A stretch of DNA of 57,858 bases from Candidatus Poribacteria bacterium (GTDB taxonomy: Bacteria; Poribacteria; WGA-4E; PCPOR2b). The position numbers were made by a program, and so were the translations under genes. The notes below the pieces were generated by a model. That model ran no database searches and was not told the origin of the DNA. It worked only from the letters and a program-made list of their open reading frames with translations. This document shows, in pieces, positions 32,719 through 35,525 of the stretch (the first letter of the stretch is position 1; each line of letters starts with the position of its first letter). The DNA lies in NCBI GenBank assembly GCA_022822005.1, contig JAJECO010000073.1, positions 1-57,858 of the forward strand, written 5' to 3'.

Positions 32719-32891
32719 GGTACGATAGTTGCCCGTCGCGTGGTACGTGACACGTTCTGATGACTTTAAAAACAGGTTAGCGGACATCAATGAATTTATC
32801 GTATCTCATTCCAAAATGTGTTGCGACGCAGCATGATGCTAAAATCAACTCCATGTACTCCCTACTCACCTTCACAAAGGAGAAGCAAATT

Positions 32892-34838
32892 ATGAAAATG
32901 TCCTGTCGTTTAACTACCGCAGTCCTAATCTTGGTGGCTTGCATCATGGTGTCGAATTGCAGCGGTAAGGAAATGGCAACACCTGCTGAGGTTACGCCCG
33001 TTAGCGATGCAGAGATTATATCTGAGAGTGCGGCCGTCGCTTCCGATAGTGCAGATGTCGTTTCCGATAGTGCCGTAGACATTGCTGTAGATATCGCTCC
33101 CGATAGCGTTTTGAATGTTATACCCCAAGACACTGTTGGACTGATTTACATACCTAGCTTACTCGGACTCAATGACGAAATTAACGCACTCATGGCGGAG
33201 ATGGTTCCTTCAGATCCACCACAGGAAATACTCGCTCAGATCTTAGCAGATACTTTTAGCGCAGGTTTTGAGACGCTCGCAGAATTGGAAGAGCTGGGCT
33301 TAGACATGCGGAGGGACTTCGCGGTGTTTCTCTCCAGCGCCAATCCACCAATGCCTTCCGCAGCGGTTCACGTTAAGGATGCCGAAAGCGTCAAACAACT
33401 CATTGAAATGGAAGCAGAAGGCAGTAGCACTGTCATCCATAATGGTGTAACATATCACACCACAGGTGAGGAGGGCGCATTCGTTCTGATGGGCGATGTG
33501 ATGGTGTATTCAAACTCAGCAGCGGTCTGCGAAAAAGTGATTGATACCCAAAAGAAGATGATGCCATCGATCGCTGCCAATACAGATTTCCAATCGCTCG
33601 AACTCGATACTACATCTGGCGTAAATGATTTGATTGCCTATTTTGCGATGGATGCCATCGTAGATGATCTCCGCCCCATGTTGACTGATAAGGCAGAGGG
33701 GCTAAAGATGGAGATGGAGGCAAGCGCGGAATCAGACCCAGAGCTTAGTGTTGGTTTAAAGTATACTGAAAGTCTGATCGACGGTGGTATATGGTTGCTC
33801 GACCAGTCAAGAACCTTCAGTCTTACGCTGCAACTCAACGGCAGCGACCTACAGATCTCTCCATTCCTCAAATTTAAGCGGGATAGTGCAGTCCAAACAT
33901 ACATTCGCCAAGGGCCACAAGAGCTAACACACCTCAAATACCTGCCTCAAAATGCGTTTGTCAACGGTGAAATGCGATTTCAGAAAGAGACGCTCATTAG
34001 TCTTACGCAGACAATGATGAAGTTGTTTGTCCCTTCGGATCCGAACGCGGATACAACGGGGATCCAAACCGCGTCTGAGGCGTTGAATGAAGCCTTCATA
34101 GAGTTCTACGAAGGCTTGGGAGATGGGCAAGCTCTTTCCTTTAATTTCAGTGAAAGCATAATGCCCGATATACTGTATATCTACGATGTAACGGACGAAG
34201 AGCTGGTTAAATCGTATATGGAAGAGGATTTCATTGAATATTTCGGAGCCTCGATGGGACTTGTCAAAGCGATGGGAGCCGGTCAGGAATTCGCTAGCAT
34301 ATACGCGGACGTGTCGGCGGGTCCCCCTGAGATATACAACGGTGTGGAAATCAGAAGTTACCTCCTTCCGAATATCACCTCCAGTCTCGGTGAACTTCCG
34401 CCCGAAATGGCAGGTGTCGCCCCAGAACAGTGGAACGTCTACTACGCTATTAGCGGCGGGAAAATGCTCTACGGGATGGCGGGCAATGCTCAACCGGTGA
34501 AGAATGCCCTTGACCGAATGGCCGGTATGAGCGCAGGTTTTGATCAGGGAGAGGGCTATGCTAAGCTGGCAGATGCATTGACGTTGGAAAATAACATGCT
34601 CTTTGCGATCTCGCCTGTCACAGCAATCAAGAACCTCGTACAGATTTTTGCTCAGTTGGATCCAAACGTCGGCACGATCCAGATGTTTTTAGTTAACATC
34701 CCCGAAGCCTACAGCATCGGTATTGCCAGCCAAAATCGGGATGAAGGAATTGCAGGGGAGCTATTTATCTCGCTCGGCGATTTCAAGGAAATCATCACTA
34801 TGATTATCGGGCTGCAGCAAATGGGTGGGGTGCAGTGA
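32892..34838 (+). CDS. DUF3352-like lipoprotein
   Basis: A 648-residue protein with a signal peptide MKMSCRLTTAVLILVACIMV and candidate lipobox VSNC, so it is probably anchored in a membrane. A short Ser/Asp/Ala/Val-rich linker (SDSADVVSDSAVDIAVD) follows. The body begins with VIPQDTVGLIYIPSLLGLNDEI and repeats the pattern of DUF3352 proteins, whose role is unknown. AAAGGAG precedes ATG 32892; the longer open frame from 32790 lacks this. The gene stands alone and converges on the candidate selenoprotein gene. Confidence 0.65.
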   Translation: MKMSCRLTTAVLILVACIMVSNCSGKEMATPAEVTPVSDAEIISESAAVASDSADVVSDSAVDIAVDIAPDSVLNVIPQDTVGLIYIPSLLGLNDEINALMAEMVPSDPPQEILAQILADTFSAGFETLAELEELGLDMRRDFAVFLSSANPPMPSAAVHVKDAESVKQLIEMEAEGSSTVIHNGVTYHTTGEEGAFVLMGDVMVYSNSAAVCEKVIDTQKKMMPSIAANTDFQSLELDTTSGVNDLIAYFAMDAIVDDLRPMLTDKAEGLKMEMEASAESDPELSVGLKYTESLIDGGIWLLDQSRTFSLTLQLNGSDLQISPFLKFKRDSAVQTYIRQGPQELTHLKYLPQNAFVNGEMRFQKETLISLTQTMMKLFVPSDPNADTTGIQTASEALNEAFIEFYEGLGDGQALSFNFSESIMPDILYIYDVTDEELVKSYMEEDFIEYFGASMGLVKAMGAGQEFASIYADVSAGPPEIYNGVEIRSYLLPNITSSLGELPPEMAGVAPEQWNVYYAISGGKMLYGMAGNAQPVKNALDRMAGMSAGFDQGEGYAKLADALTLENNMLFAISPVTAIKNLVQIFAQLDPNVGTIQMFLVNIPEAYSIGIASQNRDEGIAGELFISLGDFKEIITMIIGLQQMGGVQ

Positions 34839-34902
34839 TGTGATGACAGGTCTTATCAAAGGACCACCGAACGATGTTGTGATGGGGGGGAAAGGAAGGG
34901 CA

Positions 34903-34945
34903 AGAACGGAAGGTGTCGATGCGTTAATTCGAAACCTTCCGTTCT
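34903..34945. terminator. Bidirectional hairpin between convergent genes
   Basis: AGAACGGAAGGT (34903-34914) and its exact inverse ACCTTCCGTTCT (34934-34945) form a 12-bp stem with a 19-base loop between the DUF3352-like gene (plus) and the HMA lipoprotein gene (minus). T-tracts are short on both sides, so termination is likely but not textbook. Confidence 0.6.
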
Positions 34946-34966
34946 CGATTTAACCGTAGGGACCGG

Positions 34967-35350
34967 CTAATTTGTTGCGGTTTTTGCGCTAAAACCTGCG
35001 TTTTTGACAGCATCAGCCAATTGGGCACCAGTGGCTTTGCCTTTTTCCAGCTTAACGATGGCTGTACCATCTGCTTGGGAAACATCGGCACTAATCACGC
35101 CAGGAACGTTTGTAAGTGCGGACCGCACTTTGGCTACACAGCTCCCTCACGCCAGCCCATCAACGTCTAATGTGACCTGTTCGTAAGTCAGCGGAGCTGC
35201 TTCAGACATATCCGTGCTTGCAGCGGTTTCGGTTTTTGTCATTGCTGGCTCTGCTGTCTCAGCCGCTTTTTCCATCGCTTTTTCTGAAGCACAGCCGATA
35301 GCAAGCAGGATTGCAACGCAGCAAATTAGTGTGAGTTTTAGTATACGCAT
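34967..35350 (-). CDS. HMA-domain lipoprotein, candidate selenoprotein (in-frame TGA at the first CxxC position)
   Basis: A 127-residue product if the TGA at 35149-35147 is read as selenocysteine (residue 68). It starts with a lipoprotein signal (MRILKLTLICCVAILLAIGC), then an Ala/Glu/Thr-rich linker, then a heavy-metal-associated domain from TLDVDGLA through U-G-S-C and VAKVRSALTNVPGVISADV to the end. HMA domains bind soft metals through GMTCxxC; here the reading is GLA-U-GSC, so the stop codon replaces exactly the first metal-binding Cys while the rest of the domain stays in frame to TAG 34967. A SECIS-like hairpin follows the TGA. AAAGGAG lies 11 bases before the ATG. The alternative is a recent nonsense mutation or sequencing error. 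Confidence 0.75.
35114..35146 (-). promoter_or_regulatory. Bacterial SECIS-like element after the in-frame TGA
   Basis: On the minus strand the RNA reads AAGUGC-GGUCC-GCACUU (35130-35114): a six- to seven-bp stem with loop GGUCC starting 22 bases after the UGA. E. coli fdhF SECIS has a GGUCU apical loop at a similar distance (known biology), and bacterial SECIS loops normally lie about 16-37 bases after the UGA. The element is inside the coding sequence, as required. Confidence 0.65.
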
Positions 35351-35525
35351 TTGGGTTACATCTCCTTTCAGAACTTAATTAAGTGCCTACCCATTGTATG
35401 TGAAAACATCGGTTTTGTCAAATAGAATTAACTTCAGCTCACCAAATGATGGTGATAACGACATCACCTGCCGACTCCACAGCAATGGAACATCAACATA
35501 CTTCAATTACAGAAAGACGCTCTTC

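Follow-up and report, generated by a model that had tools for sequence, protein, structure and literature searches.

An in-frame TGA at the metal site of an HMA lipoprotein gene

The window, by which we mean the whole 57,858-nucleotide stretch analysed here, lies on contig 42 of a 6.0-Mb Poribacteria genome. On its minus strand a reading frame begins with ATG at 35350, meets a TGA at 35149–35147 and runs on in the same frame to a TAG at 34969–34967. When the TGA is read as a residue the frame yields a 127-residue protein with selenocysteine (Sec, U) at position 68, in which a lipobox signal peptide is followed by a low-complexity linker of approximately 40 residues and a C-terminal HMA domain. 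The features of the locus are as follows.

34967–35350, minus strand: predicted Sec-HMA lipoprotein gene, from ATG to TAG, with TGA-bearing homologues in 59/59 same-order genomes
35147–35149, minus strand: in-frame TGA, predicted selenocysteine 68, at the first position of the HMA CxxC; Cys in the paralogous domains L080, L081, L084, L093 and L095
35114–35130, minus strand: SECIS-like hairpin AAGTGCG-GTC-CGCACTT; conserved, covarying and not in Cys versions
34991–35173, minus strand: HMA domain PF00403, residues 60–120, with the UGSC site; from profile, AlphaFold fold and Foldseek matches to MerP 1osd and CopZ 6ff2
35291–35350, minus strand: lipoprotein signal peptide with lipobox LAIG-C20; from the sequence, with Cys20 invariant in 18 homologues
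35362–35368, minus strand: putative Shine-Dalgarno-like AAAGGAG, 11 nt upstream of the ATG
34904–34944, no strand assigned: 11-bp perfect inverted repeat GAACGGAAGGT...ACCTTCCGTTC between convergent genes, a possible terminator

The TGA falls precisely where the metal site begins (GLA-U-GSC), and the second metal-binding position is a TGT Cys, such that the two-ligand HMA site is present as UxxC (UGSC) with Sec replacing the first Cys of CxxC. An earlier note on this DNA had described just such a frame, running from a lipoprotein signal through a TGA at the first metal-site Cys and on into intact HMA sequence, and its coordinates and its reading of the frame hold. With the TGA read through, PF00403 matches across it over residues 60–120 (E=1.6e-11, 44.8 bits against a curated cut-off of 24.8). 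The signal peptide and the lipobox LAIGC, with Cys20, mark the product as a lipoprotein, and an alignment of 18 full-length homologues shows no variation at the lipobox Cys, the Sec or the second Cys, nor over much of the HMA core. Standard annotation would cut Sec-HMA genes short at residue 67, or overlook them.

The gene looks monocistronic, and its neighbours vary between families; across the order we find no metal-gene neighbourhood and no dedicated reductase partner conserved beside it. On the plus strand of the window, 32790–34838 encodes a conserved 682-residue protein without a Pfam match; in most members of family f1 it is encoded next to the Sec-HMA gene and convergent with it.

The hairpin and the selenocysteine machinery

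Downstream of the TGA lies the hairpin AAGTGCGGTCCGCACTT (35130–35114), with a predicted energy of −8.2 kcal/mol; its 22-nt core has z=−3.8 and folds better than 200 of 200 shuffles. As the earlier note had it, a 5-nt loop reading GGTCC begins 22 bases after the TGA. The hairpin conforms to a published bacterial SECIS model, which calls for a loop of 3–9 nt, a stem of at least 4 bp, a G at loop position 1 or 2 and a distance of 16–37 nt from the UGA (PMC13188914). A search of 34900–35350 with the Rfam library gave no SECIS match, only chance hits. Because the 47-nt region around the hairpin is not unusual by folding energy alone (z=−1.0), it is the comparative evidence that carries the case for a SECIS.

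This evidence is extensive. The pattern GTGC-RGNNY-GCAC is kept at 84 of 89 TGA sites, 81 of them at one distance and three shifted by three bases; the shifted sites are those of family f4 (L091, L092), whose metal site has an extra codon and is spaced UxxxC (UGISC). At the five sites off the pattern it is the closing pair or a single stem pair that deviates. None of nine Cys-HMA sites of the same clade carries the pattern (Fisher p=1e-9, uncorrected for relatedness; as the sequences are related, this value overstates independence). Codon choice is uniform: a Val codon is GTG and an Ala codon GCA in 58/58 TGA sites each, against usages of 29% and 28% respectively in the window, whereas an adjacent conserved Val codon in the proteins of the same 58 sites is GTT, GTC or GTA instead. 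Across 25 distinct sequences 96.6% of cells are paired, against no more than 52% when slid; the closing position holds A-U in 18 of them and G-C in seven, and is unpaired in none. A control within a single gene is provided by L093:2822–4018 (minus strand), which encodes five nearly identical HMA domains in one protein: the three TGA domains have the hairpin, and in the two TGT (Cys) domains it is broken. L095:2511–3662 (plus strand), with one Cys domain beside three TGA domains, behaves in the same way, only the Sec domains carrying the hairpin.

The combined pattern TGA-N18-GTGCRGNNYGCAC matches once in the 6.0-Mb genome, at this site; all 73 genomes of the order have it, and none of 12 genomes from elsewhere in the phylum does. 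With the pattern reversed there are no matches in the 73 order genomes and three overall, all in one genome outside the order. Two regular-expression matches (L016, position 2180; L065, position 6401) lie in non-HMA frames and were dropped. The TGA and hairpin occur together far beyond chance, as the earlier note had argued in holding a random stop with a SECIS to be unlikely.

That note had also proposed searching the genome for the Sec machinery, and all four components are present, each over its curated cut-off. The genes for tRNA-Sec (C78:285–374, 76 bits), selB (C78:432–2324) and selA (C78:2400–3758) adjoin on one contig and selD lies on another (C66:75130–76050). In the phylum as a whole selB is present in 76 of 85 genomes, and in 55 of the 56 good ones. 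The host SelD gene itself carries a TGA, in a TCGUAAK site (L055:1441–2526, G000:C66), and would thus be a selenoprotein in its own right, which is an internal sign that the selenocysteine code is in use.

Conservation across the TGA and cysteine counterparts

HMA-protein matches with one in-frame TGA are found in all 59 same-order genomes searched, and both the TGA and the HMA sequence downstream of it, which the earlier note had suggested following through an alignment, are kept over 11 genera. Within the genus itself (six genomes) the full 127-residue protein aligns and the TGA is retained; dN/dS downstream of the TGA is 0.12–0.51 in 15 same-genus sequence pairs, indicating purifying selection. 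The frame thus codes through the TGA.

The same note had also looked for Cys at the Sec position in relatives, and it is there in the close paralogues or domains L080, L081, L084, L093 and L095. Three of these belong to a sister family, in which a cytochrome-c-like CxxCH region and a WD40 propeller precede a C-terminal HMA domain. Most genera have Sec in this family (L082:1704–3542 and L083:1767–3455, minus strand; L085:272–2119, plus strand), and its Cys forms L080, L081 and L084 are two members from the own genus and one from genus g4, which belongs to the same taxonomic family. The cytochrome/WD40/Sec-HMA fusion is a predicted second selenoprotein family. In the genome under study the only HMA matches over the cut-off are the present domain and two domains of CopA, both of the ordinary Cys type. 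A contig scan not confined to the phylum returned TGA forms from Poribacteria only and elsewhere Cys-HMA proteins, mostly in long, P-type-ATPase-sized frames; this distribution beyond Poribacteria rests on a single narrow scan. Outside the order, an HMA frame near position 1306 of L102 (G070, family f8) has, besides its TGA, a TAG that lies in frame within the hairpin region, through decay or something else.

Two readings would dispense with selenocysteine altogether. A nonsense mutation, pseudogene or sequencing error would account for a TGA that splits the frame under standard annotation, but a site common to 59/59 same-order genomes, with purifying selection downstream and a conserved, covarying hairpin, rules this out, and we give it a negligible probability. 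A general reassignment of TGA, or leaky readthrough with Trp or Cys, would likewise explain a TGA in frame. However, 12 of the window's 38 long ORFs end in TGA as an ordinary stop, which shows that it has not been reassigned; in alignments the position falls on Cys rather than Trp, and the hairpin goes with the TGA while copies with a Cys codon are without it. With reassignment ruled out on these grounds, we regard this second reading as a whole as highly improbable. The protein is, by contrast with both, almost certainly a selenoprotein, as predicted from its sequence and those of its relatives.

A predicted soft-metal ligand and its precedents

The AlphaFold model has a confidently predicted beta-alpha-beta-beta-alpha-beta domain; 68 residues reach a pLDDT of at least 90, and the mean is 73.9 when the disordered linker is included. 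Foldseek matches are to MerP, CopZ, PacS and ATP7A/B domains, the best being MerP 1osd (TMt 0.93, 29% identity), with CopZ 6ff2 at 38% identity. HMA domains hold their metal just ahead of the first helix, and residue 68 lies directly before that helix. The residue before the metal site is Thr or Ala and not Asp; Thr or Ala is characteristic of Cu/Hg-type HMA domains and Asp of the Zn/Cd/Pb type. At neutral pH a selenolate is in its ionised form, with a high affinity for Cu(I), Hg(II), Ag(I) and Cd(II).

A plausible explanation of the locus, and one that we consider very likely, is that it encodes a genuine selenoprotein, an exported and lipid-anchored HMA domain with a Sec68-x-x-Cys71 soft-metal site, predicted to act in the capture, buffering or handover of Cu(I). 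In this model SelB with Sec-tRNA would insert selenocysteine at the UGA at 35149–35147, directed by the SECIS hairpin at 35130–35114. The product would be exported and lipid-anchored at Cys20. In the periplasm or outer envelope it would display its single HMA domain on the low-complexity linker, with Sec68-x-x-Cys71 in place of Cys-x-x-Cys. The domain would most likely capture, buffer or pass on extracytoplasmic Cu(I), with Hg(II) as the alternative. A role for the Sec as a soft-metal ligand is probable; that copper is the main metal is a prediction on which our judgement is evenly poised. We infer the identity of the metal from homology and from the gene content of the rest of the genome.

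The earlier note had envisaged a membrane-anchored selenium-based metal binder or detoxifying protein, possibly for mercury or copper; its soft-metal part stands, but its mercury part finds no support and copper is the better guess. A protein devoted to mercury, capturing Hg(II) in the manner of MerP, would suit the top Foldseek match, 1osd, and the extreme affinity of selenolate for mercury known from general chemistry. Against the MerP profile (TIGR02052), however, the protein scores 45.5 bits where the cut-off is 92.55. No MerA is found over the cut-off in the genome; the two best candidates fall below it and are without the C-terminal CC pair, and for this reason look like dihydrolipoamide dehydrogenases. 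A MerT search of the genome also gave no match, although its positive control was likewise silent. As the genome has CopA and yielded no genuine MerA, Cu(I) is more likely than Hg(II); extracytoplasmic capture or buffering of Cu(I) would be favoured over mercury resistance, and a dedicated mercury protein seems to us quite improbable. It is also unlikely, if less so, that the UxxC is a thiol/selenol redox centre on an HMA scaffold (a selenenylsulfide reductase, or a site of peroxide or metal reduction) and not a metal carrier. Sec usually marks redox catalysis; in the sister family the Sec-HMA domain shares one protein with a WD40 propeller and a cytochrome region bearing CxxCH, and in two genera of the family the gene lies opposite, and divergent to, a multihaem MtrC/F-like cytochrome gene, arrangements that hint at a redox setting. 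Set against this, in fold and sequence the domain belongs with the metal-carrying HMA domains and not with the thioredoxin fold, neither the second Cys nor much of the HMA core varies, and no dedicated reductase partner is conserved beside the gene.

Sec in HMA-like metal proteins has precedents. The UxxU metal-binding (seleno)protein NF041115 (putative mercuric reductase HMA, Olavius symbiont), a type listed in PMC13188914, likewise carries Sec at the metal site of a small HMA domain; it has two Sec (UxxU), whereas the Poribacteria protein has one (UxxC) and is a lipoprotein with a 40-residue linker, scoring 56.9 bits (E=1.6e-15) where that profile's cut-off is 95. A cation-transporting ATPase E1-E2 selenoprotein is listed with a UxxC motif (PMC2398784, PMC13188914), which we would place in its N-terminal HMA domain; this is a transport ATPase, and the Poribacteria protein is free-standing and without one. 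A Sec-containing MerP is listed, with two sequences, from the GOS metagenomes (PMC2398784). MerP shares the HMA fold, GMTxxxC and the predicted location in the periplasm with the protein described here, for which no mer context was found. CopZ (NF047957; PDB 6ff2) is also a single HMA domain without Asp ahead of the site, of the Cu rather than the Zn type, but is cytosolic and uses Cys, in contrast to the exported Sec lipoprotein, which reaches 57.6 bits against a cut-off of 85. Finally, the MerT/CopZ fusion-like heavy metal transport selenoprotein NF045683 is CopZ-like too, although its MerT-like membrane part is missing here (31.8 bits, cut-off 375).

The family is a variation on this theme and is unusual in its extent, which includes tandem genes, polyproteins in which three of four or five HMA domains have Sec, and cytochrome/WD40 fusions. 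Among the papers searched none joins HMA domain and selenoprotein, and none links Poribacteria and selenoprotein. A redox role is assumed for many of the selenoproteins predicted in bacteria; few have Sec as a candidate metal ligand on a carrier domain, and these are uncharacterised (PMC13188914). The Sec-HMA family is found in every examined genome of an order of uncultured sponge symbionts. Slaby et al. (2017, PMC5649159) reported that SelA and SelB are enriched in sponge symbionts, the two occurring together in most of the symbiont bins, which come from various phyla. The passage on SelA and SelB in that paper names no target, and the Sec-HMA family would be a concrete one. It is possible, and we suggest it tentatively, that the Poribacteria of this order use selenocysteine largely for extracytoplasmic soft-metal handling, by way of UxxC lipoproteins, tandem copies, polyproteins and fusions, which if true would explain at least in part the retention of the Sec machinery in these symbionts. 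The natural Sec/Cys pairs inside single genes make the metal affinities of Sec and Cys directly testable.

Further divergent lipoproteins with GI(A/T)UGGC HMA-like sites occur at L114:341 (minus strand) and in L112 (plus strand) and may form a third subfamily; several pattern matches in genome G040, for example at C181:4313, resemble these sites.
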